Source: Candidatus Jettenia sp. AMX2 (GTDB lineage: Bacteria; Planctomycetota; Brocadiia; Brocadiales; Brocadiaceae). Taken from it: a stretch of DNA of 64,000 bases. Where the stretch lies: positions 1,541,043 to 1,605,042 of the forward strand of contig CP129469.1 in NCBI GenBank assembly GCA_030583665.1. The letters are read 5' to 3'. Below, piece by piece: positions 11,130 through 34,940 of this stretch. The notes beneath the pieces were generated by a model. It was not told where the DNA came from, made no database searches, and saw only the letters and a program-made list of their open reading frames with translations. A program made the translations under genes and the position numbers. Position 1 is the stretch's first letter. The number at the start of each line of letters is the position of its first letter.

Positions 11130-12706
11130 AGTTGTTTTCCTCCTCGCCCTACACTAAACTATTACAAGGAAAATGTCCAACTATTATAGACACAGAGGGT
11201 CCCGTTGTTTCAGCGTCTCGATATCGCGGTATAGATCGGAACCGGACTTGCCGACCAGGGATGCCAGGAATTTGAGCTCCGATTTCTCCGATGTTGCGTC
11301 TGTCCCCTCGAATGAATAAACGAGCGAGCAGGCTTCAGCGGAAATCAGGAGATTTTCATTGGGATTATGACGCTGATAAAAAAGCCGTTCAAACAATTCC
11401 TCATCGCGAAAGCCAGACAGGGTTTCGCCTTGTTCTACAGTATTGGCAAGCGCAATCGCCACGCGAGCATTGCCCCCGGAAAACTCCGCAATCGTCCGGG
11501 CGTCGATCTGCCCAATATGGGTGAATCTCTTTTGTATTAGCTTTTCTATGACCCCTTCGCTGGCCGGTTCCAGACTGAACACATTGGTCTCTTCGGGAAC
11601 GTGGTCCCGAACGTCATACTCAACCGTGAGAAGGTCTACCGTACTGGTTGCTCCCGAACAGATTTTCGTGAGTTTGCGGTGAAGGTCAGGAGGACAATTG
11701 TCGACGATAAGGATGGCCCTCGCTCTATCGGAGATGAGCTGTTCGGCCAAAACCGTCGGATCGGGTTCCGGACCATAAGACATATCGGTGTATAGTACTT
11801 GGGTTCTGTTAAGGGCACCTTCTCCTACTCTTTCGTCAAACAGCGCTTGGACAAGCCGGGTCTTGCCTACTCCCGATAAGCCGGTCAGCCGGATAGATGT
11901 GCCAGGTCCGGAAAGAAGCGATCTCAGTTTTTGTAAGCCGTCTTTAGCGGACATGCCTTTATCTCTTACATTTCCGCCATCATGCAATCTTAAGCCGTCA
12001 TCCAGGAGATATTCTTCCTCGATCCCTTCGGGGGCATCTGCCCAGTTCTCGTAAGGCCGCCAACCTTTTAGCTGTCGGCCGATTCTCTTACGCGTCCACA
12101 AGATTAAGGAAGGGTGCGAACGCAACCAGGTCGCGATACGGCCACGATCAAAAAAGTCCAGACTCAAGTTGGCGTAATTGGTTTCGCTTTGGACGGCTTC
12201 TTTCATAGCATCCAATCGGTTCTTTAACGCCGTGTTCGCCGTAGATCCATTAGAGCTAACAATTATGTACGCGCCATTTTCTTCAATAAGGTTCTTGATT
12301 TCCTCTCTTAGCACGCCATCCGGCTTCATTTCCTTGAGTATCTCCGCCCTGGGCATGTCAGGTTTTTTCACTTGAAATCCGGTAGTCTTCCTCGGGACAA
12401 AACTGTTTGAAGGAGGTTCTATGTCGCCTCGAACAACAACATCAAGACCGCCGTCGCGAGCGTCTTGATTGCCGCCCCATATTATTCCTTTAGTGGAGAG
12501 AAGCGCCATCCGAAAATCAGCTTCGCAAAGCAAGCCTACTAGTGCTCGTAGGTCCGTATCGTTAAGCTGCGCTATATCGTCCCCCGTTATTTCAAGTAAG
12601 CTATACATTTGAGATGTGTTCCCTTGTACGTCCAATATCATCCCTCACTTTTCAGCGTTCAAAAAGGCTTTTAGGAGTCCCGGTTTTGTTTCATGGATCA
12701 CTTTCT

Positions 12707-12766
12707 GCCCAACGGCCTAAATCAGCGGTGGCGTCTTTTGCCGTCCGCTGGATTGATTCGTTAGGC
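12707..12766 (-). other. attC site
   Basis: GCCTAAC (12766-12760) and GTTGGGC (12713-12707) match the core-site consensus fully. The inner arms ATCCAGCGGACGGC and CCACCGCTGAT form an imperfect hairpin. Confidence 0.88.
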
Positions 12767-14801: not shown

Positions 14802-14988
14802 GCATAACGGTGTTGCAACTAAGCCGCCGCCCAGAACAGATGGCTAAATTAGAACGATAATTAAATAATTACTAAAATTTTTCATAGCAGTAGAAACTTG
14901 AACAACAAACTAAACACGGAACGATTACCCAGAGAAACTACAAATGCCGAATGCGAATAAAGCGGTCGGCTTGAGTTGCTTGTTATAC
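14802..14988 (-). other. Long attC site (187 bp)
   Basis: GTATAAC (14988-14982) and GTTATGC (14808-14802) enclose matching arms GCAACTCAAGCCG and CGGCTTAGTTGC, which differ by a single extra base. The central 120 bp are AT-rich and variable. The stop of the SLATT C-terminal part (14983) is within the first box. The length is like that of long attC sites in large chromosomal integrons. Confidence 0.75.
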
Positions 14989-15330
14989 ATTTTTCTCATC
15001 TGCAGTAAAATTATAATCACCTTTTTTAATTTTTTTCTGCGCTTTTATGAAATATCTTTCAGGTGCAGTTAAACTAACAGATTTTAATTCTTCCAGATTT
15101 TCAATTGCTTTATTAAAATCTTCTTCAAACGAATCATTATAAATGGTTATTGTCCTTAATCTTCTAAATCTACCTTGCATTATTTTATATTTACTAGCAG
15201 CATTATCTAAAATTTCAATCTTTGCTTCAATCTTTAGTGCAGAAAATATGCTTGGGAGAACTCCGGCTATAAAAGCAGAAAGAGCGATTAAATATTTTAC
15301 AATTAAAGTGGATGGGTTTGTCAAGACCAT
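14983..15330 (-). pseudogene. SLATT-domain effector, 3' part
   Basis: The frame gives a second transmembrane helix (LIVKYLIALSAFIAGVLPSI) and a helical C terminus (MQGRFRRLRTITIYND ... SVSLTAPERYFIKAQKKI). This completes the SLATT two-TM effector whose first half lies at 16670-16851. The apparent ATG at 15330 is probably an internal codon of the original gene. An IS3 element separates the halves. Joining them at a shared AATGG leaves the frame off by one, so there is either a second lesion or an ill-defined IS end. Confidence 0.7.
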
Positions 15331-15336
15331 TTATTA

Positions 15337-16665
15337 CTAATTTTTAGATGCATTAATGAATGAATTACCAGGCCCAGAAGGATAACGGAAGGAACCTGTA
15401 GGGTGACTGGAGTTACCCTTCTGGGCCTCCGCGAAAACTCCACCACTTTTCCTCCCTTTACTCATTCTTACGACAAAATCCCATAATGAACCTCAGAGGG
15501 TGTTCTATATCCAAGCGATTGATGGTACCTCCGATTATTATAAAATGAAAAATACTTCTCCAACCCCTCTCGGGCATCTTTGCATACCTGATAATCTTTT
15601 ATATATACCTCCTCATATTTCACACTCCTCCAAAGCCTTTCCGTAAAAATATTATCAAATACTCTGCCCCGACCATCCATACTGATCGCTATCCCTTTAT
15701 CCAAGAGAATCCCGGTAAAATCTTTACTGGTAAACTGGGAACCCTGATCACTGTTAAATATCTCTGGACATCCTTTCCCCAAGGCATCCTCCAATGCCTC
15801 TCTACAAAAATAAACGTCCAAACTATTACTCAAACGCCATGATAACACATAACGGCTAAACCAATCGATTATCGCTGCAAGGTATAAAAACCCTTGCCTC
15901 AGCCGAATGTATGTAATATCGCTCGCCCATACCTGATTGGGATACTGGATCTTCACATCACTCAGTAAGTAGGGATATATTTTGTGATCGGGATGTTTCT
16001 TACTGAAATTCCCTCTCGGATATATCGCTCGCAATCCCATCTGTCTCATGAGGGATTGCACTCTTTCCCTACTTATACAAATGCCCTCCCGTCTCAATGC
16101 CTCTCTTATCCTGCGACTCCCATAGAATGGACATTCAGTAAACATTCCATCTATTCGGTGCATGACCTCTATTGTCTCATCTGATACCCCTACTGGCTCA
16201 TAATATATGTTCGATCTATGCAGACCTAAAAGTTCACACTACTTTCGTATGCTTAATCCCTTATGATCTCCTTCTATTAACCGCCTCTTCTCATCAACGC
16301 TCAAACTGTGCAGATTTTTTTTAAGCCATTCGTTCTCCACCTTCAACTGGCCTATCTGCCGGTAAAGCTCATCTATCATCTTCTCCTTCTCTTCTCGTAA
16401 TTTCACCCCCTTCCCCTGAAATATCTCCACCAGTCCTTCTAATGCTCGTTTCCGCCAATTTGTTATCTGTGTCCTGTGAACTTCATATTCTGACGACAAC
16501 TCTGCTATCGTCTTTTCACCTTTTATTGCCTCCAGGGCAACTTTTGCCATAAACGCTGAATTAAAACTCTTTCTCATCCTTATTTCTTTCGGACCTCCTT
16601 TCGTCATTTATTTTACCAAAAATGACTCTTGATTACTGGTCCGAAAAACCCAGTCCATTATAAAT
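15337..16665 (-). mobile_element. IS3-family insertion sequence 2 (ends approximate)
   Basis: Contains an IS3 transposase gene with an internal amber codon. The upstream end is probably near TGGACTGGG at about 16660, but I could not find a matching inverted repeat on the other side. There, a hairpin with arms AGGCCCAGAAGG and CCTTCTGGGCCT occupies 15369-15429. The left end may be truncated. It interrupts the SLATT gene. Confidence 0.65.
15468..16607 (-). pseudogene. IS3-family transposase with in-frame TAG
   Basis: Two segments in the same frame, 16607-16242 (HTH and coiled coil: FNSAFMAKVALEAIKGEKTI ... GQLKVENEWLKK) and 16238-15468 (integrase core: VWASDITYIRL, IFNSDQGSQF, FTERLWRSVKYEE), are separated by one TAG at 16239-16241. 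The codon sits in SIRK-stop-CELLGLHRSNIYYEP, where relatives usually have Gln, consistent with a CAG to TAG change. The transposase is therefore probably inactive unless the codon is read through. Confidence 0.82.
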
Positions 16666-16851
16666 GCCATTTTCAGATTCTGATAGAATTTGAATACTTG
16701 CAATTCCGCCAAGCAAAAGAGGTATTGAGATAAAAAATGTTTTTACTTTCCTTAAAAAGGAAAGCCAAAAGAAAAAGGTAGTTGAAGTATACAAACAATT
16801 TTCTTCTTCTCGTTTACATTCTTGGATTATTGTTTCATACTTCTGTTCCAT
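16666..16851 (-). pseudogene. SLATT-domain effector, 5' part
   Basis: From ATG 16851 (overlapping the CD-NTase stop): MEQKYETIIQECKREEENCL, YTSTTFFFWLSFLRKVK, then the first transmembrane helix (FFISIPLLLGGIASIQIL). The ECKREEENCLYTST segment is the recognisable SLATT start. SLATT proteins are two-TM effectors paired with SMODS/CD-NTase enzymes and are predicted to form membrane pores on second-messenger binding. IS3 element 2 cuts the gene after about 60 residues. Confidence 0.75.
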
Positions 16852-18106
16852 CTTCTTCCTCACGGTTAGTGATTGCAACTGTTATATTATCATATGCTAC
16901 ACATACATTGTCTTTTATGATGTAGCATTCAACGTAATGAGAACCAGTGTATTTTGAGTTTTCCACTCTTGACCTTTTCCCAGTGTCAGCCCATATTTGC
17001 CCCCGAAGATCATTACTTCGAAGTGCTTCTTCACCAAAGTTTCGAACTTTCCATTTTACACTGAATGGTTCAGGTATGTTGGTAGATTCTATAAAAAATT
17101 CTAAACGTTTCCTTTTTAATAAAAACTTCATATGTTTTAACAATTTTGTCCGCCAACCTTTTTGACTAACGTAACAATTAATTTTTACAAAATAGTTTTC
17201 ATTAAAATCAACCGGATGAAATTGTTCGATATATTGTTCTTTCTCTGAAAAATATCTGTCTTCCTTTTTTTCAGCCTTAACAGTTCCTTGACTTGGAAAA
17301 TCATTGCCAAAAATTTTTTTCCATTCTGCAACGGCTTTGAGTTCTTTTTCTTCATTAAAATATTCTATTGCTTTTTTAGCTCTTTTTTGTGCCGTTTCAG
17401 CATAACTTTTTTGTGACTCATCTATTTCGTCAACTAAAAAAGAAAAGAAATCATAAATAAGAGTTTGTGTATCTGAGAATGTATATTCATTATCATCTAA
17501 AAACTTTATTACGGCTTCTTCTATTTTATACGATTTTATTTTAACACCACATTTTTCTTCCCACTTTTTTATCATTCGAACCAGTTTTCTTGTTAGTCCA
17601 GAATTGTTTGAGTCTGATTCATCAATTTTTTTAATTTCACTTCTTGGATCCCAAATCTCCCAACTTCCTCCATTAGCACTATTTAGAATTTTGAATTTAC
17701 CATCAGTTTCTTCAAAAGAGGGAAGAACTTCAACATTATGGCGAGGATCAGAAAATTCTACAACGACAACTTTACCAAATACTTTTATATTAGAGCTAGA
17801 ATATTTTTCTTCAAGAATAGATTTAATTTCATTCAACAAATTAGATTGACCATTTGAAGTTTGATTATCATATTGTTCGAATTTTTCTTCAGGCATTTTA
17901 AATATTACGTCAATATCCCTTGCAGGTCTAATATTTGTTTTCTTCCCATAGGAACCAATTAATAGCTTTGTCGATCCGCTATAATTCGTTTCATAGTAAT
18001 GGTTATGAAGCTTTTCACAAACACCGGAATACTTTGTTTTTGCATCTTCCCTTTGTTTTGCAGTTAGCTTAATATTATCTAAAAACTTATCAAAATAATT
18101 TTCCAC
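16835..18106 (-). CDS. CD-NTase (SMODS) with AGS-C sensor-like domain, CBASS synthase
   Basis: A 423-residue nucleotidyltransferase of the cGAS/DncV-like fold. Residues 51-66 contain the catalytic GSYGKKTNIRPARDID motif (GS, then D64 and D66), and the third acidic residue is E126 in HNVEVLP. The C-terminal 85 residues (VKWKVRNFGEEALRSNDLRG ... SHYVECYIIKDN) resemble the AGS-C domain found on such synthases. Members make cyclic oligonucleotide signals on phage infection. The start is a GTG. It overlaps the SLATT effector gene, so this was a two-gene CBASS cassette; the synthase looks intact while the effector is broken. Confidence 0.85.
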   Translation of the reverse strand: MENYFDKFLDNIKLTAKQREDAKTKYSGVCEKLHNHYYETNYSGSTKLLIGSYGKKTNIRPARDIDVIFKMPEEKFEQYDNQTSNGQSNLLNEIKSILEEKYSSSNIKVFGKVVVVEFSDPRHNVEVLPSFEETDGKFKILNSANGGSWEIWDPRSEIKKIDESDSNNSGLTRKLVRMIKKWEEKCGVKIKSYKIEEAVIKFLDDNEYTFSDTQTLIYDFFSFLVDEIDESQKSYAETAQKRAKKAIEYFNEEKELKAVAEWKKIFGNDFPSQGTVKAEKKEDRYFSEKEQYIEQFHPVDFNENYFVKINCYVSQKGWRTKLLKHMKFLLKRKRLEFFIESTNIPEPFSVKWKVRNFGEEALRSNDLRGQIWADTGKRSRVENSKYTGSHYVECYIIKDNVCVAYDNITVAITNREEEDGTEV

Positions 18107-18123
18107 GATAACCTATTAAAAAT

Positions 18124-18195
18124 GTATAACGCCGCCCATAAGCCGCGCGAACGAAGCGCAGCGGAGCGAGCGTCGGCTTGATGGGCTGGTTATGC
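18124..18195 (-). other. attC site
   Basis: GCATAAC (18195-18189) and GTTATAC (18130-18124) with long complementary arms, CAGCCCATCAAGCCG and CGGCTTATGGGCGG, and a GC-rich palindromic centre. A textbook attC hairpin. Confidence 0.92.
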
Positions 18196-18201
18196 GGTAA
18201 C

Positions 18202-19032
18202 TCAGAAATGCCTACAAGCATCTAAATCAACCTCTATTGGCCAATTCTTGTTCTCCACTCTATTGCCATGATCGTTTAAATTCTTGATTCTCTGGATTTG
18301 TTGAGTAACAGATGAGGCATTGTCTTGTTGCGCTTTGTTTTTAACATCCAATGATGGGTAAATGATCATGGCAAACCACCCGTCAAGAGGGATAAGGTAC
18401 TTCAGCTTTTTCTGCTGCTCTGGTTGTAACGTCTGATAATAGGAGTGTGCGGATTCATTTTTCGGGTCTCTAGGATCGATAATTAGATTTTTGTTTAGTA
18501 ATTCCTGCAAAAATACTATTCGCCATTCTGATTCGCTGTAAAAATCGTAGTTTAGGGTGCGCGAGCTATTCATTGGCTTAAAAAAATTGAGAAGATCTTT
18601 ATTGCCAATCTCCTTAGCACAAGTTTGCAAAAATACGTCGTTATTTATTTTTTCGTGAAATCCATAGTAGATCAAGGGCCTGCCAGAGCGGCTAAATACA
18701 AATGGTCTCTTAACGCCAATTCCCAGTCGCCCATATTGTCGAGCATGTTTCCTGGACTCGGAAACCTTTAGTTCAGTAAAACAAGTTTTTGGTGTTTCTG
18801 GAACGGTGATCTGGGCGCCTTCAAACTCTAAGGAACTCTCAGATTCCGATGTCATCCATAGCCCGTGCGTAAGAATGTCGCGTAACCTGTTTATATATTG
18901 ATCCGTTACATTGGCATTCTTTCTAGTAGACGATTTATCTGATTCATGCCAATTTTTGTCATATTCACGATCAATGTCTTTACCAGTCCAATGAATTAGG
19001 AAATCAGAATGTATGGCGTAATCGTAGTTCAT
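18202..19032 (-). CDS. AbiGi-like abortive infection protein
   Basis: A 276-residue protein with the AbiGi family pattern: SDFLIHWTGKDIDREYD near the N terminus, INRLRDILTHGLWMT, TCFTELKVSESRKHARQYGR and LGIGVKRPFVFSRSGRPLIY. AbiGi is the antitoxin-side component of the AbiG phage abortive infection system; AbiGii is its partner. No AbiGii-like gene is next to it: the cassette holds this gene alone between two attC sites. It may act independently or with a partner elsewhere. Confidence 0.78.
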   Translation of the reverse strand: MNYDYAIHSDFLIHWTGKDIDREYDKNWHESDKSSTRKNANVTDQYINRLRDILTHGLWMTSESESSLEFEGAQITVPETPKTCFTELKVSESRKHARQYGRLGIGVKRPFVFSRSGRPLIYYGFHEKINNDVFLQTCAKEIGNKDLLNFFKPMNSSRTLNYDFYSESEWRIVFLQELLNKNLIIDPRDPKNESAHSYYQTLQPEQQKKLKYLIPLDGWFAMIIYPSLDVKNKAQQDNASSVTQQIQRIKNLNDHGNRVENKNWPIEVDLDACRHF

Positions 19033-19056
19033 GCGTTACCTATCTCTAACTTTCCC

Positions 19057-19126
19057 GCATAACGTTCAAGGTCAGGGGCGCTGCGCGGCTTTATCGCGGA
19101 GCGTCCCCTGCACCACAGTGTTAGCC
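19057..19126 (-). other. attC site
   Basis: GGCTAAC (19126-19120) and GTTATGC (19063-19057) enclose arms GTGCAGGGGACGCTCCGCG and CGCGCAGCGCCCCTGAC. The stop codon of the gene at 19121 lies in the first box. Confidence 0.9.
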
Positions 19127-19990
19127 CTCATAGCCGATGAGAAGCTGGACATTGCACACAAACTGAAATGCATAGATTTTCGCCAGCGACTTTGCCAGCT
19201 TGCTGTTTGCTTCTTGGAAGAGCATTGCCGCCAACGAAGAGTAGGTTTCACGCAAATCACCAAGCTGTTCCGAGGCGCTGACTATGGCCTCAGCAGTCTC
19301 AGCGAGAAATGCCGAATTACTTTGGCGAGGCGATTGGTCTTGGAGAGCCTCAAGTGCCTGCTCAAAAGACCGACTCTCAATCGGTGTTGGCTCGGAGTGA
19401 GCAATGCCGCAGTTTCCGGGAGATACGAAGCTATATCGATCATGGCCGTTCAGCTTCGCGATCTCGCAGAAATTGGATTCCTTTACGAGTTTTCCGGAGT
19501 TGATTGTGGCCCACAGCTCACCATACGTATGAAATGCTGGGCAGGCGTAAACGACAATTGCCTTTCCAGAAGTCTTCTGTGCGAGTGATTCAAGGGCCTG
19601 TTGCTGGCTCGCGAACGTGTCGTAACGAAAGTACGGCTTTTTCCACGACCCGAACTCAGCAGCATCGGAGCGGACCATCCTATTGGGACGCTTGGCCTGA
19701 ATGAAGCAGTTGAACTTGAACCGGGGGAAATGTTCGATTTCGTGTTCGAGTTCCTTCCACCACTCATGTCTCAAATGCGTTGCCGGAGGATGCATGAAGA
19801 ACATCCGGCGCCACCACGGGTACATATGAGGGAACAAATTCCAGAAGTGATGATTGGATGTTCGTAGGGCCACATCGAAGCCGACGATATCTTCAAGAAC
19901 TTGACCCGGAGGAAAGAAAAGCCGGCGACTATGCACAAGCTCAGACGTGAGGTGCTGCTCGTAGGTCTTTTCTTCAAATTCAGCGTACAT
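19121..19990 (-). CDS. Predicted PD-(D/E)XK nuclease-like cassette protein
   Basis: A 289-residue protein that I do not recognise by name. The N-terminal 105 residues suggest a restriction-endonuclease-like fold: E33 and D39 in GQVLEDIVGFDVAL, then FKFNCFIQAKRP with Q98 and K100. The rest is alpha-helical. It is noticeably more GC-rich than the neighbouring AbiGi and CD-NTase cassettes, indicating a separate origin. Being second from the integrase, it is among the more recently acquired cassettes. A defence nuclease role is inference from motif and context. Confidence 0.55.
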   Translation of the reverse strand: MYAEFEEKTYEQHLTSELVHSRRLFFPPGQVLEDIVGFDVALRTSNHHFWNLFPHMYPWWRRMFFMHPPATHLRHEWWKELEHEIEHFPRFKFNCFIQAKRPNRMVRSDAAEFGSWKKPYFRYDTFASQQQALESLAQKTSGKAIVVYACPAFHTYGELWATINSGKLVKESNFCEIAKLNGHDRYSFVSPGNCGIAHSEPTPIESRSFEQALEALQDQSPRQSNSAFLAETAEAIVSASEQLGDLRETYSSLAAMLFQEANSKLAKSLAKIYAFQFVCNVQLLIGYEG

Positions 19991-20005
19991 GATGAATGCC
20001 TTGAG

Positions 20006-20095
20006 GGCTAACGTCCACGTCCACCGGCGCGCGGCGGCGATGGTTGCTCAAGCCACAGTGCTTCCCGCGCGTCCGCGTGCGGCGTGCTGTTAGCG
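20006..20095 (-). other. attC site
   Basis: CGCTAAC (20095-20089) and GTTAGCC (20012-20006) on the minus strand enclose a GC-rich imperfect hairpin with arms CACGCCGCACGCGG and CCGGTGGACGTG. Confidence 0.82.
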
Positions 20096-20106
20096 TGCAT
20101 ACACAA

Positions 20107-20880
20107 TTACAGGACTCTCGACGGTTCAAATGAACGCAGCGTCCTTTCCGCGGTCGGGTTGCGATCCACGATCATGCGATACAGGTCAGGCCAATACTCG
20201 GTTGCACGGTAACGACCTCGCATTTGGCCTCGGACGAAGCCAGCGTTCCGGAGAACCCGATGGTCTCTGAATTGGCTTAAATGTAGAGGAGCCTTCAACG
20301 TACTGACGCGGCGGATCGGCGCCATCCAATCCTTTCCCGCTTTCCAGCCGGCTCGTACGTGTTTGACTGGCGCTGCCACCCGAAACACATCCCGTACAAA
20401 ACTGTCTGGGGCGGTGCGGTAGAAGAGAATTAGATCGCCTTCCATGGCTTTGCTCGGCACGCTCCACAATTCGCTGTACCTGCAGGTGGAAAGATGATCG
20501 CGAAACTGGCCAGCGACAGGTTGGAACCAGACCCCAAAACCTAGACCAAACTCCTTCCGCAATTCAATGACTCGAATTCGCTCCGGTACCGCTGGCCAAT
20601 CATGAATCCAGCAAACGATGCAATCACATTGTTTGGGATCATGCCGATGCTGAACGAAGTTTCGCGATCGATACTCAAATTCTATTCTGACGCGCTTTCC
20701 ATCGCGGTACGCTGTGCAGTCTGGGTACCCCGCCTGGACCCTTTCAACATGAAGCCCAAACTTTCTTGCGAGATGTGAGAACAGGAACACTACGCCCTGT
20801 TCGTTCTCTGGAGCGTAGTCGAGCGGAGCGCCGTCCGGCAGGCGATCGGGTCGAGTTTCACCGAGGTTTCGAGAAGCCAT
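20107..20880 (-). CDS. Predicted PD-(D/E)XK nuclease with EVE/PUA-like C-terminal domain
   Basis: A 257-residue protein. AGYPDCTAYRDGKRVRIEFE (D54, E67, E69), then FEYRSRNF and the CDCIVCWIHDW strand, match a compact PD-(D/E)XK nuclease core. From about residue 135 the sequence (GDLILFYRTAPDSFVRDVFR) looks like an EVE/PUA-like domain that binds modified bases. Such a fusion would suit a modification-dependent nuclease. AGAGGAAATC precedes ATG 20880. It is the first cassette after the integrase, so it should be the best expressed and most recently inserted one. GC content is high. Confidence 0.6.
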   Translation of the reverse strand: MASRNLGETRPDRLPDGAPLDYAPENEQGVVFLFSHLARKFGLHVERVQAGYPDCTAYRDGKRVRIEFEYRSRNFVQHRHDPKQCDCIVCWIHDWPAVPERIRVIELRKEFGLGFGVWFQPVAGQFRDHLSTCRYSELWSVPSKAMEGDLILFYRTAPDSFVRDVFRVAAPVKHVRAGWKAGKDWMAPIRRVSTLKAPLHLSQFRDHRVLRNAGFVRGQMRGRYRATEYWPDLYRMIVDRNPTAERTLRSFEPSRVL

Positions 20881-20908
20881 GATTTCCTCTAGGGCCCTCC
20901 AATTTGCA

Positions 20909-21025
20909 CGCTAACATATTATTGAAGGGACGAAATCCGTCCCGTTAACCCCCTAAAAAGGGTGTTAGTCATAGAGCAAAAATCGTGCCCTATCTTTCAT
21001 CGTTGGTTGTGTGATTCAAAAAAGT
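20909..21025 (-). other. Putative attI recombination site
   Basis: The GTTAGCG core (20915-20909) marks the junction with the first cassette. The 110 bp between it and the intI stop (21026) have no coding frame and contain the inverted repeat GGGACGAAATCCGTCCC. In integrons with intI oriented like the cassettes, attI lies in this interval. The exact limits cannot be defined by eye. Confidence 0.6.
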
Positions 21026-22189
21026 TCAGAAGTCCAGTGGACTTTTTGCCTCTTTCACGGTTTTACTCGGCACGCAATGGGTATAAATCATCGTCGTTTT
21101 CACATCGGCGTGGCCCAGCATTGTCTGGATCGTGCGAATATCGTAATTCGCCTGCAAAAGATGCGTGGCGAAACTATGCCGAAAGGTATGTGAAGTGACG
21201 CGTTTGGTGAGCTTTGCACGCCTTACCACTTTTTTTAACGCCTCCTGGACTTGCGATTCATGAAGATGATATCGCCGACGTTCTTTTATGCCAGGAACCG
21301 GCGTAAGCTCTTTTTGTGGAAAAAACCACTGCCAGATGAAATCCTTGGCAGCGGCAGGATACTTCTTTTCAAGTGAATCAACGAGAAATACACCCGCATA
21401 GCCTGCCGCGAGGTCCTTGTCATGAAGTTCACTCACAGTTTCCAACTGGGTTTTTAACTCAGGTATTATAGTCTGAGGGAGAGGAACTGTCCGGTCCTTG
21501 TCGCCTTTGCCGTGCACCGTGAGAATTCCGTCCTCGAAATTGAAATTCTGCACTCGTAGGCTGAGGCACTCAAAGAGACGAAGCCCGCAACCGTAGAGCA
21601 GATTGACAACAGTATCGCATGGATATTCGAGATGTTTCAAAATTGCATCAATTTCCGGGCGAGAAAGAACGACAGGAATATATTTCGATTTCTTAGCGCG
21701 GGGGACATCGCGTTGATCGCCAAAGTCTTTCTGGAGGACATGTCGAAAAAGAAACAGCAATGCATTGAAGGCCTGGTTCTGGGTTGAGGAGGCAACGCGG
21801 CACTCAACCGCCAGATAGGTGAGATATTCCTTCACGTCAACAGAGGAAAGCTTATCCGGTGGTTTGTCGCGCAGATAGCGTTGAAATTTGCGAGCCCAAT
21901 CCGCGTATGTTTTAAGCGTTTTTCGAGAATAGTGCCTGGTTTTGATCTCGGCGACGAGTTTTTCGATGGTCTGATCCCATGCCAGTGATTTGGATTTTTC
22001 CAGACAACGCCATTCGTTATAGCGCTTTCCCCCCGGTGAGCTGAATAAAGTGGACGGCTCTGCAACGGCTGCCGCTGATATCGTGGCTGAGATTTCAACG
22101 CCTGTGACAAGGGCGCCTTTTGCATCTCGTGCCTTTGATGGCGGTTGCGCGGTACGAGCATTTGTGGGAGGTTTCGCCTCAACCGGCAC
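21026..22189 (-). CDS. intI: Integron integrase IntI
   Basis: A tyrosine recombinase of 387 residues if translated from the GTG at 22189. The core-binding domain is at about 70-155 (RHYSRKTLKTYADWARKFQR). Catalytic residues are R204 (CGLRLFE), H334 and R337 (HTFRHSF), H360 (GHADVKTT) and Y369. Residues 282-312 (KDFIWQWFFPQKEL ... RRRYHLHE) are the extra patch that distinguishes IntI from other tyrosine recombinases. It points the same way as the cassettes, as reported for some planctomycete, spirochaete and Chlorobium integrons. Sequence further upstream encodes a second, now broken N-terminal domain. Confidence 0.9.
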   Translation of the reverse strand: MPVEAKPPTNARTAQPPSKARDAKGALVTGVEISATISAAAVAEPSTLFSSPGGKRYNEWRCLEKSKSLAWDQTIEKLVAEIKTRHYSRKTLKTYADWARKFQRYLRDKPPDKLSSVDVKEYLTYLAVECRVASSTQNQAFNALLFLFRHVLQKDFGDQRDVPRAKKSKYIPVVLSRPEIDAILKHLEYPCDTVVNLLYGCGLRLFECLSLRVQNFNFEDGILTVHGKGDKDRTVPLPQTIIPELKTQLETVSELHDKDLAAGYAGVFLVDSLEKKYPAAAKDFIWQWFFPQKELTPVPGIKERRRYHLHESQVQEALKKVVRRAKLTKRVTSHTFRHSFATHLLQANYDIRTIQTMLGHADVKTTMIYTHCVPSKTVKEAKSPLDF

Positions 22190-22487
22190 TGAACCAAGGT
22201 GTTCTTTCGGCTGCTGCGATTCGAAAAATAGAAAAATCGTGTGTGCGGCCTGCGTGCATTGTTGGGAGGTTTGTTTTTTGCTCCGCAGTTTTTCGATGAA
22301 TAAGCGAATCTGTTCCAGTTTGGCGTTGGGAGGAGGATACTTTTTGCAAAAATCGAGGAAATAACGAAGCTATTTCCTGTAATAACCGCGGAAGGACTCA
22401 GGAACTGCACGTTGTTGTAAGACTTCGTTGAACTGGGTTAAAACATTCTGTGGAATCGGAAGCATGACCTTGATCTCATATCTCATA
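22190..22487 (-). pseudogene. intI: Broken N-terminal extension of intI
   Basis: From ATG 22487 one reads MRYEIKVMLPIPQNV, then a frame change at a run of five T, then VLQQRAVPESFRGYYRK, a TAG at 22370-22372, and LRYFLDFCKKYPPPNAKLEQ continuing in phase into the IntI frame. This extension looks like an additional core-binding (SAM-like) domain. One extra base and one nonsense codon (perhaps TGG to TAG) separate it from the present integrase. Confidence 0.7.
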
Positions 22488-22577
22488 ACATTACTTTTTT
22501 AACAAAGTACTGTGATTAAAAAGTTTTTTTCTTTTAACAAATAGTACCGCGTAAGTCAAGAAATATTTACATAAATC

Positions 22578-22606
22578 TTGACATATAAATTTCCCACTAC
22601 TATTAT
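22578..22606 (+). promoter_or_regulatory. Sigma-70-type promoter toward the integrase remnant
   Basis: TTGACA (22578-22583), a 17-bp spacer and TATTAT (22601-22606) form a near-consensus promoter in the divergent space between intI (minus) and the integrase remnant (plus). It may once have driven that integrase. Confidence 0.65.
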
Positions 22607-22739
22607 TTTAATTTTTTAACGTTACAAATTGAGTGATATTAAGAAAACAGGATAAGTATTCATGCTCAATTTTATTCACTAAATACAGCAGATTGTTGAA
22701 TAAACGGTACCCGTTTCCGTTCATAATAGTTATAAGAGG

Positions 22740-23022
22740 ACAGTTCCGCTTCTTTAACTTCTCCCGCCCCATTCTCCTGGAAAGAAGTGGCGACGAAATC
22801 GGGGGCGTTGTCAGGGAAAGAGTGGGACAAGGTTTACTCAGACCTGTATGCGGAGATTAAGGTAAGACATTATTCCCTGAAGACATTGAGATCGTATTCT
22901 ACATGGGTACGGAAGTTCCAAGCCTTTACAAAAGGCAAGAAACCTTCTGATTTGAATCCATCCGATGTGAAGGATTTCATATGCTTTCTGGCTGTGCAAT
23001 GCCGCGTCTCGGCTTCTTCCCA
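22740..23022 (+). pseudogene. Second integron-integrase remnant
   Basis: The plus-strand frame reads SWKEVATKSGALSGKEWDKV, YSDLYAEIKVRHYSLKTLRS, then PSDVKDFICFLAVQCRVSAS. This parallels the core-binding region of the intact IntI (residues 60-137). It stops being integrase-like at SASSQ, where an attC-like sequence of the hicBA cassette begins. No catalytic domain remains. It faces away from the main integrase. Confidence 0.75.
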
Positions 23023-23025
23023 GAC

Positions 23026-23086
23026 CCCCACACCTGCCGTTTTTGAGCGCAGCGAGAAAACGGTCAAGTGCAGCGTCTTGTTAGCG
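23026..23086 (-). other. attC-like site of the hicBA cassette
   Basis: CGCTAAC (23086-23080) is followed on the minus strand by arms CACTTGACCGTTTT and AAAACGGCAGGTG, which differ by one base. A clear closing GTTRRRY box is missing, so the site is partial; it abuts the integrase remnant. Confidence 0.6.
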
Positions 23087-23087
23087 G

Positions 23088-23276
23088 CTATTTTACGGGC
23101 TCTATACCAAGGTCTTTGCATATCTTCCTCGCCAAGATGTCCTTGATTTCGGAATGCCGAGGGATCGCCGACCGTTTATTTTGAGCTGGATTATGCCACC
23201 AAGAATGCTTACCACCTTCTCGTAAAAGATCACATCCTTGGCTGCGCAGATACTTGAGAAGTTCATTTCTCTTCAT
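23088..23276 (-). CDS. hicA: HicA family mRNA interferase toxin
   Basis: A 62-residue dsRNA-binding-fold toxin. MKRNELLKYLRSQGCDLLRE, GGKHSWWHNP with the catalytic histidine region, and the C-terminal IPRHSEIKDILARKICKDLG match HicA throughout. It overlaps hicB by 4 bp. It appears complete. Its stop is 2 nt before an attC-like box, consistent with capture as a cassette. Confidence 0.92.
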   Translation of the reverse strand: MKRNELLKYLRSQGCDLLREGGKHSWWHNPAQNKRSAIPRHSEIKDILARKICKDLGIEPVK

Positions 23277-23485
23277 ATGGCGATTTTTTCTTCCTTGTAG
23301 CCGCTGCCAGCAGCGGCCAACGCGTCCTGGCGGTTGAATTCCAATGCCTCTTTTAGAGTCACTTCCAAAGTCTCTTTCAATTCCTCATAAGTTCTTTCCT
23401 GGCAATTTACGCCGGGGATTTCCCCGATCCATCCGACCCACCAGTCGCCTTCCTGTTTTACAACCGCTGTATATTCGTTTTTCAT
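23273..23485 (-). CDS. hicB: HicB family antitoxin
   Basis: About 70 residues with the HicB partial RNase H-like fold: YTAVVKQEGDWWVGWIGEIP, GVNCQERTYEELKETLEVTL. ATG 23485 has GGAGG 8 nt upstream; longer frames are not supported. It lacks a C-terminal DNA-binding domain. It is translated ahead of, and coupled to, hicA, the less common order. Confidence 0.9.
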   Translation of the reverse strand: MKNEYTAVVKQEGDWWVGWIGEIPGVNCQERTYEELKETLEVTLKEALEFNRQDALAAAGSGYKEEKIAI

Positions 23486-23818
23486 AATCATTACCTCCTT
23501 ACTGAATATTTGATGCCGCCTAGCCATATAATTATATAGAATTAATTGAAATGAATAGAATTGGTATAACACCAACAATACCTTAATTTTCAAGGTAAAA
23601 CAGGAAACCAACCCAATATCAAGGACTTAAGAATTTTCAATATTCCACCCTTTCAGGGTTATTTGTTCATGGCTGCCATTAATAATAATTATTTTCATTT
23701 CTTAGGGTTATTCTTCTGCGGTTATTCATTGATCTTAATCCCGAAGGGATGTCATGATTATAGCAAAAAGTACAAATAGGTCTTTAACCCCGAAGGGGTG
23801 ACATAAGGGAGGCGATGA
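23486..23818. repeat. Intergenic region with CCCGAAGGG palindromes
   Basis: No gene is seen. At 23736-23804 is a copy of a dispersed repeat: ATCCCGAAGGGAT, GTCATGATTATAG, about 25 variable bases, then AACCCCGAAGGGGT. Related copies are at 36652-36720, 36948-37019 and 45460-46130. Confidence 0.75.
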
Positions 23819-24130
23819 TCATTTCATAAGTGAATGGATTCTTTTGGTATCCAGGAGGGCTTTTTCCATAGAAACAAGCGGAGTAATCTCTATATCGGTA
23901 AAAAACGGAAAGAGCGGCAGTTTAGAAACAATTTCATCCATCTCCTCGCTGGATTCAGCATCTATTATAGCAGCAGCCCCCCTCTTCCCGGATAACTTTC
24001 CTCCGGCCAGAATTTTTCCCCGACGTTGAAAACGCGAAAAATATTCCCATTCCTTTATAACATACCCTAAAAAATCCTTTACCGGTAATTCCGGCATTTT
24101 TTTTATCTCTACTTTTAACAAAAACAGCAT
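23819..24130 (-). CDS. Muconolactone isomerase-like small protein
   Basis: A 103-residue protein with a dimeric alpha/beta-barrel-like pattern: LLKVEIKKMPELPVKDFLGY, EYFSRFQRRGKILAGGKLSG, AAAIIDAESSEEMDEIVSKL. This is the layout of muconolactone delta-isomerase-like and related YCII-like proteins. The true function is not clear from sequence. It lies just downstream of fabG on the same strand and could be the last gene of that transcription unit. Confidence 0.5.
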   Translation of the reverse strand: MLFLLKVEIKKMPELPVKDFLGYVIKEWEYFSRFQRRGKILAGGKLSGKRGAAAIIDAESSEEMDEIVSKLPLFPFFTDIEITPLVSMEKALLDTKRIHSLMK

Positions 24131-33521: not shown

Positions 33522-34940
33522 ATGAGAGTGATAACGACACAGGGTCGCGAGATCGACCTGAAGCAGGACATATTCGACGGTTTAAAGATGCGTCTCCGGG
33601 GGCCAGTGTTCCTACCTGGCGACACCGGCTATGAGGAGTCCCGAACGGTCTGGAACGCCATGATCGATAGAAAGCCCGCCGCCGTTGCGCGCTGCCTCGG
33701 CAGTGCCGACGTCATCGCGTGCGTGCAATTCGCGCGCGAAAACGACATTCTGCTCTGCATCAAAGGCGGAGGACACAACATCGCGGGCCTCGCTACGGCC
33801 GACGGCGCGCTGATGCTCGACATGTCGCTTATGCGCGGCGTATGGGTGGACCCACATCGAAAGGTCGCCCACGCGCAGGCTGGTTGCCTGCTCGGTGACG
33901 TGGATCTCGAAACGCAGGTGCACGGGCTCGCTACCGTCCTCGGCTTCATCTCGCTCACCGGTATCGCAGGACTCACCCTGGGAGGTGGCTTCGGCTACCT
34001 AACAAAGCGTTGGGGCTGGACGTCTGACACCGTAGTCGGGATGAACGTTGTGACCGCCAACGCACGACTGGTGCGGGCGAGCAGCAACGAGAACGCGGAC
34101 CTCTTCTGGGGGCTGCGGGGTGGTGGCGGGAACTTCGGCGTCGTGACTGGCATCGAGTACGGGCTGTTCCCGGTCGGTCCTGAGATCGTCGGTGGTGTCG
34201 TAGCCTGGCCTGCAAGCGAGGCACCCAAGGTACTCGAGCTGTACCGAACGCTCGCCCAGACAGCCCCACACGAACTCACGCTCGTCGCGTTCATGCGCCC
34301 GGCGCCCCCTGCACCGTGGCTTCCGAAAGAGATGCATGGGAAGCCAATCGTGGCTGTGCTTGCCTGCTACAGCGGGAGACCCGAGGAGGGCGAGAAGGCC
34401 GTTGCCTCCATCAAGGCGTTCGGCAAGCCCATCGGTGATGTGCTCGTCCGCCGGCCGTACATGCAGATGCAGTCGCTGCTCGACGCTACACAGCCGAAGG
34501 GCCGGCGTTACTACTGGAAGAGCGAGTACCTCTCGCGTATCGAGCCCACCCTTTGTGAGAAGGTCATCGAGCATGCGAGCAGAATTCGGTCGCCTCACTC
34601 GGCTGTGATCCTGTTCCAGATCGAAGGGGCTCTGAACCGTCTCGAAGAGGACCACTCTCCCGTCGGCAACCGCGACGCGCGGTATGTACTCAACATAGCG
34701 GGTTCGTGGGAACAAGCGGACGAGGACCGAGCGAACATCGAGTGGGCACGCGAGGCATGGACCGACATGCGGCCGTTCTCGAACGGCGGCACGTACATCA
34801 ATTTCCTGACAGAGGACGAAGATCACGAACGCATCGAGGCGGCGCTCGGCAAGGGAGGACTCGAGCGGCTCGCTGAGGTTAAGGCGAAATGGGATCCGCA
34901 GAACGTGTTCCGCACGAACCGAAACATCAAACCGGCCTGA
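33522..34940 (+). CDS. FAD-linked oxidoreductase (berberine bridge enzyme-like)
   Basis: A 472-residue BBE-type flavoprotein. CIKGGGHNIAGLA contains the histidine used for covalent FAD attachment, GIAGLTLGGGFGYLTKRWGW is the second FAD-binding loop (without the cysteine of bicovalent members), and WDPQNVFRTNRNIKP is the C-terminal BBE motif. Members oxidise alcohols, sugars or alkaloid-like substrates with O2. The gene is strikingly GC-rich compared with everything around it and is bounded by two attC sites, so it is a laterally acquired integron cassette. Confidence 0.88.
   Translation: MRVITTQGREIDLKQDIFDGLKMRLRGPVFLPGDTGYEESRTVWNAMIDRKPAAVARCLGSADVIACVQFARENDILLCIKGGGHNIAGLATADGALMLDMSLMRGVWVDPHRKVAHAQAGCLLGDVDLETQVHGLATVLGFISLTGIAGLTLGGGFGYLTKRWGWTSDTVVGMNVVTANARLVRASSNENADLFWGLRGGGGNFGVVTGIEYGLFPVGPEIVGGVVAWPASEAPKVLELYRTLAQTAPHELTLVAFMRPAPPAPWLPKEMHGKPIVAVLACYSGRPEEGEKAVASIKAFGKPIGDVLVRRPYMQMQSLLDATQPKGRRYYWKSEYLSRIEPTLCEKVIEHASRIRSPHSAVILFQIEGALNRLEEDHSPVGNRDARYVLNIAGSWEQADEDRANIEWAREAWTDMRPFSNGGTYINFLTEDEDHERIEAALGKGGLERLAEVKAKWDPQNVFRTNRNIKPA

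Follow-up and report, generated by a model that had tools for sequence, protein, structure and literature searches.

Two candidate single-gene nuclease cassettes beside the integron integrase of an anammox bacterium

A short integron array in an anammox genome

The stretch of DNA analysed here (the window) comprises 64,000 nucleotides, bases 1541043-1605042 of the 3.46 Mb single-contig genome of Candidatus Jettenia sp. AMX2. Two hydrazine synthase alpha domains (PF18582) are encoded in this genome, which identifies the host as an anammox bacterium; the same domain had no match in 14 control genomes. An integron integrase gene, intI, is located on the minus strand at window positions 21026-22189 and encodes a protein of 387 aa (TIGR02249, 363.5 bits against a cut-off of 265). 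It is co-oriented with the cassettes, and its 3' end is directed towards the array, whereas integrons are usually laid out the other way round. The same atypical orientation was previously described in the integrons of Treponema, whose integrases group with those of Kuenenia, Chlorobium and Blastopirellula (PMC3607928). A probable attI region (minus strand, approximate limits 20905-20990; folded z -3.39) lies between intI and the first cassette and contains a GTTAGCG insertion point adjoining this cassette. The start of the first cassette gene is separated from the integrase stop codon by 146 bases.

The first cassette encodes protein A (257 aa, 20107-20880) and the second protein B (289 aa, 19121-19990), both on the minus strand, as are all the cassette features that follow. 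These frames agree in position with those of the preliminary description of this DNA, which had also placed them next to the integrase: they are indeed the first two cassettes after the integrase gene, and both are bounded by attC sites. The attC belonging to cassette A, which lies between the two genes (20006-20095, 90 bases), has R''/R' arms that pair and forms a long bottom-strand hairpin of -26.0 kcal/mol (DNA parameters; z -2.75), and that of cassette B measures 70 bases (19057-19126; -20.0 kcal/mol, z -4.26). The third cassette (18202-19032) encodes an AbiGi-like protein (Pfam PF10899, 26.6 bits against a cut-off of 22.4; PADLOC AbiGi, 6e-8) and is followed by its own attC (18124-18195; -16.9 kcal/mol, z -2.67). 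The fourth (16835-18106) encodes a CBASS-type CD-NTase with SMODS and AGS_C domains (PF18134, 1.8e-38; PF18144, 6.8e-33; PADLOC cyclase, 8.4e-119). Overall, the bottom strands of the attC sites fold with z values of -2.7 to -4.3 relative to shuffles, and the attC search was positive for just 3 when applied to 300 pieces of 250 bases drawn at random from the window. A and B thus have the hallmarks of integron cassettes, attC borders with a foldable bottom strand beside an integron integrase. All four gene cassettes after the integrase look like defence genes. No Rfam match was found at 18000-24000.

As had been noticed earlier, A and B are richer in GC (55.0% and 51.1%) than the next two cassettes (39.5% and 30.8%) and than the window as a whole (43.0%), with the integrase gene itself, at 49.5%, just slightly below them. 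It had also been assumed that cassettes closest to attI are the best expressed. This does not follow automatically at this locus because the integrase points towards the array. A promoter scan gave no excess over shuffles, and the cassette promoter was not located.

Several other features of the window and genome deserve mention. In the region of 14983-15330, 15468-16607 and 16633-16878, directly downstream of the CD-NTase gene, an IS3-type transposase pair is flanked by short open reading frames. By eye, these frames look as if they once formed a single membrane effector gene, one half on each side of the pair, and neither half has a Pfam match; since this effector-like gene is apparently split by the IS3-type pair, the CBASS cassette may be broken. 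Another region (22787-23146, plus strand, and 23088-23611, minus strand) has a second integron integrase gene of which an N-terminal fragment is left (TIGR02249, 42 bits); the fragment runs into an attC-like end beside HicA toxin and HicB-like genes, and the fragment and this end are the remnant of another integron end. Genome-wide, intI is one of two intact integron integrase genes, to which many decayed and scattered integrase fragments must be added. The coexistence of intact and decayed copies suggests that integrons have been repeatedly gained and lost in this anammox genome. A protein of 485 aa (11184-12641, minus strand) that starts just past an attC-like site (12707-12766) has an N-terminal DGGLD...GFQVKKP motif and, by eye, resembles a further D...QxK nuclease fused to a P-loop ATPase (AAA_16, sub-threshold); it is possibly a further defence cassette. 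Finally, a gene resembling FAD-linked oxidases by eye (33522-34940, plus strand) has a GC content of about 60-65%, against 43% for the window, from which we conclude that it is likely a recent import.

Protein A, a predicted nuclease module joined to an EVE-like domain

The N-terminal part of protein A (residues 18-112; 20545-20829, minus strand) was delimited by alignment, fold model and Foldseek comparison as a module that recurs as a stand-alone unit and carries the catalytic-type residues E27, D54, E67 and E69. P24, E27, D54, E67 and W91 are invariant in all 31 aligned sequences of this module, and E69 is found in 30 of them; the exception, L049, is the most divergent relative and has a lysine at position 69, that is, the canonical D...ExK signature. 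D54, E67 and E69, on which the nuclease assignment had originally been based, are therefore both present where they had been indicated and conserved among homologues in the manner of PD-(D/E)XK enzymes. The ExE form of A resembles that of BamHI.

The AlphaFold model of A is confident in the nuclease module only, where most of residues 27-110 have a pLDDT of about 90. It comprises a helix (27-37) and strands at 44-48, 55-59, 62-72, 87-93 and 103-106 (pLDDT about 70-93), corresponding to a predicted alpha-beta-beta-beta-alpha-beta core in which the helix is followed by the core strands in the expected order. Fold prediction and comparison with restriction endonucleases, the check proposed in the preliminary description, thus yielded a PD-(D/E)XK-type core for A. 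The top 20 Foldseek matches in the PDB are nearly all proteins of PD-(D/E)XK or related endonuclease folds, including EcoT38I, BbvCI, Bax1, Hjc, MGME1, SfsA, I-Ssp6803I and VRR-NUC, with a best E of 0.07 and none below 0.001, so that none is individually significant. Against a viral library, the module retrieved restriction endonucleases, Holliday resolvases and VRR-NUC proteins; phmmer of A against solved structures gave no match. Neither the catalytic domain of A nor that of B has a Pfam, NCBIfam, PADLOC or PHROG model above its curated cut-off, in line with their initial designation as unclassified, and the NCBIfam matches of both proteins were discarded as chance (scores of 11-12 bits, where the cut-offs are 288-850). 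Taken together, the invariant catalytic residues, the fold and the partner domains make the assignment of residues 18-112 as a predicted PD-(D/E)XK-type nuclease module well supported.

The C-terminal part of A (residues 117-257; 20110-20532, minus strand) had been described as an EVE/PUA-like domain. In A itself the Pfam EVE match is sub-threshold (E 0.21, 12 bits against a cut-off of 23). It exceeds the cut-off in the full-length relative L017 (23.9 bits, E 4.6e-5), and three further relatives match with E values of 0.03-0.08. When a profile of the A family was compared with 177,635 PDB sequences, the best two matches were 1zce and 2gbs (E 0.25-0.6), which we take to be EVE structures. W139, D149, Y154 and W230 do not vary within this part of A and its relatives, and the C-terminal half is modelled at a pLDDT of about 40. 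These data lend moderate support to an EVE-like domain.

The module of A has been combined with different partners. It is joined to an EVE-like domain, as in A, in L016, L017, L018, L043, L059 and L061, to HNH_repeat (PF18780) in L019, L020, L025 (1.5e-27), L027 (2.7e-32) and L046, and to Mrr_N (PF14338, 2.5e-13) in L029. The association of the same module with EVE, HNH_repeat or Mrr_N would fit a single cutter with swappable DNA-reading domains. A 559-aa protein (L047, 1429-3108) contains two tandem A modules, both of which have kept the D and ExE residues. The anammox genome itself harbours a second copy of the module at about 759 kb (L024, 5949-6443), with a different helical C-terminus and, nearby, a gene resembling DUF262/GmrS by eye.

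An attC search of their loci found none of the other A-type EVE relatives in cassettes; they occur in varied genomic places and lack a conserved defence operon. No homologue of A was detected in phage genome records. Loci of the module in IMG/VR include contigs without obvious phage context, for which reason we do not claim these genes as phage genes; one of them (L059) has HNH and recombinase-like genes. No copy of the module was detected in 349 genomes from the phylum to which the Gallionellaceae genome with a close relative of B (see below) belongs, a limited sample screened without a positive control.

Protein B, its motif and its spread

The residues E33, D39 and Q98-A-K100, previously pointed out in protein B, are at the positions named. 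Comparison of six B-type proteins, down to about 30% identity, showed no substitution of E17, D39, Q98 or K100 in any of them. They share E17, G37-F38-D39, Q98-x-K100-R-P, P119-Y120-x-R122-Y123, Q129-Q130 and Y148-A-x-P, and B therefore displays the D...(D/E/Q)xK pattern. In its D...QxK form, this signature is reminiscent of Mrr-like nucleases. A distant protein, L083, led to a related, plasmid-borne family (A9) with the pattern E...G[YF]D-x(12 or 14)-Q[FY]K...R...Q...Y, where the signature recurs as GYD-x(12)-QxK. In hhalign, B and this family align over 172 columns (probability 99.0%, P 8.4e-18), and the alignment pairs D39 of B with the family's D, and Q98-x-K100 with its QxK. B-type proteins have about 45 extra residues between D39 and Q98-x-K100 compared with the plasmid-borne family. 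Members of the wider B family turn up, in a scattered way, on plasmids from numerous bacteria and from an archaeon.

The spacing and order of these residues fit a PD-(D/E)XK core, and B is probably a PD-(D/E)XK protein with an insert of about 45 residues. The nuclease reading, which stands firmly for A, is good in the case of B, where it is drawn from motif conservation and profile-profile comparison; the AlphaFold model of B, built from four sequences, has a pLDDT of 33, and none of the solved or curated nucleases is matched significantly by B. phmmer of B against solved structures retrieved just RecA fusions, which align with the helices at its C-terminus, and coiled-coil proteins matched by chance. 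Weak Pfam matches to T2SSF, SLIDE and FliS were likewise rejected, being sub-threshold, located in the helical tail or insert and absent from distant relatives. Profile comparison gave no sign that the A and B families are related. To judge from their sequences, both catalytic families look new and unrelated to each other.

Relatives of B that are 86% and 84% identical to it are found in a Gallionellaceae genome and a Desulfoprunum genome, respectively, each with its own integron integrase. The Gallionellaceae gene (L011) has attC on both sides, and the Desulfoprunum gene is flanked on both sides by attC-like sequence recognized by eye and cut by the contig end. Between B and these two relatives, synonymous sites are saturated (pS about 0.76-0.80) and protein differences are few (pN about 0.09), which indicates strong purifying selection on B and an old cross-phylum exchange of the cassette. 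Another relative, in Vibrio coralliilyticus, lies inside an array of ten VCR-like repeat ends and has no match in phage genome records, and a Pseudovibrio relative is situated in a defence island, beside AbiH, a C5 methylase, Vsr and a McrB-like AAA gene.

Proposed functions and their significance

The reading that we favour, and hold to be fairly probable, is that A is a modification-dependent, type IV-like nuclease and B a PD-(D/E)XK nuclease of the D...QxK type, two unrelated proteins that each act as a single gene against foreign DNA or nucleic acid. For A, the evidence for a reader domain is complemented by the precedents of EVE-PD(D/E)XK proteins, to which Bell et al. 2020 (PMC7641849) give a putative role as type IV restriction endonucleases, and of EVE-HNH enzymes such as VcaM4I, which flips and senses 5mC/5hmC and was tested by T4gt restriction (PMC7897488). 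The C-terminal EVE-like domain of A would bind DNA containing modified bases, probably via base flipping, and would position the N-terminal domain on invading modified DNA, which would then be cut. In the active site, D54, E67 and E69 would hold Mg2+, with E27 contributed by the first helix. Such an enzyme would not need a methyltransferase, which suits a one-gene cassette. B would be built around D39, Q98 and K100; the insert would separate its metal-binding strands, its C-terminal part would be helical, and it would most likely cut foreign nucleic acid as well. We infer catalysis, substrate, sensing of modified bases and phage defence for these proteins; single-gene defence and the targeting of modified phage DNA are suggested by the EVE-PD(D/E)XK precedent (PMC7641849), by the defence-like neighbouring cassettes and by the B relative in a defence island. 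In this analysis, A and B are good candidates for single-gene virus defences.

Different functions can be envisaged. The module of A could be a homing or mobility endonuclease that cuts a specific or vacant site and thereby spreads its gene, the partner domain providing the target site. Several relatives of A indeed carry a 'homing endonuclease associated repeat', and they are solo genes in unrelated places, so that their varied settings would also fit a mobile or homing-type nuclease. However, A resides in an integron cassette and is mobile already, partners such as EVE and Mrr_N typically go with modification-dependent restriction, and HNH_repeat is a DNA-binding repeat that by itself is no proof of homing, all of which makes this possibility improbable. 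It also seems unlikely that A and/or B are abortive-infection or toxin-like nucleases acting on RNA or host DNA and released upon phage sensing, in place of a direct attack on phage DNA. The AbiGi-like and CD-NTase genes next to them are of abortive-infection types and the PUA superfamily, to which EVE belongs, is generally RNA-binding (PMC7641849), but the other partners of the A module, HNH_repeat and Mrr_N, are DNA-binding types, and neither cassette encodes an antitoxin-like partner.

In the case of B, one could also think of a catalytically dead protein with a PD-(D/E)XK fold, or of a repair or housekeeping nuclease that is carried on a cassette for some other benefit. The lack of a solved relative, the unusual length of the insert between D39 and Q98 and the scatter of the wider family over plasmids of bacteria and an archaeon would be compatible with such a role. 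Its probability nevertheless appears low to us, as the four motif residues do not vary down to about 30% identity, selection against protein change is strong and one relative belongs to a defence island.

The EVE-PD(D/E)XK architecture predicted for A is already known; its catalytic family is its own. A would share with the EVE-PD(D/E)XK proteins (PMC7641849) the two-part organization of nuclease and EVE modified-base reader in a single protein, but its module has no curated family model and has ExE instead of ExK. Like the VcaM4I-type EVE-HNH enzymes, A would couple an EVE sensor to a nuclease in a single gene and dispense with a methyltransferase; however, it would combine PD-(D/E)XK with a C-terminal EVE, whereas VcaM4I combines HNH with an N-terminal one. 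A relative of A has the Mrr_N winged-helix domain, a link to Mrr-family and other PD-(D/E)XK restriction enzymes, yet neither the catalytic domain of A nor that of B matches Mrr_cat or another Pfam nuclease model.

Experiments have established that integrons serve as reservoirs of antiphage genes (PMC12409362), and the defence systems they carry tend to be streamlined, according to Darracq 2025 and Kieffer 2025 as cited there. As far as that account goes, A and B are likewise small, single-gene, attC-bounded candidates, and differ from the antiphage cassettes of Vibrio and mobile integrons in their anammox host, the co-oriented integrase, the lack of a PADLOC match for their families and in being known from sequence alone. 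More tentatively, one may speculate that the A module serves bacteria as a general-purpose cutter, which gives single-gene restriction systems of differing specificity when joined to EVE, HNH_repeat or Mrr_N, and that B founds a 'GYD...QxKR' family of phage-protective nucleases spread across phyla by integrons and plasmids, the two being undescribed families. Recent work has shown how rich integron cassettes are in compact antiphage genes, and most cassette proteins have no assignment. A and B offer clear catalytic residues for mutation and would lend themselves to rapid testing. If active, A would add to the type IV enzymes a cutter with interchangeable readers that could be a useful tool for modified DNA, and B would add a nuclease family that currently has no annotation.
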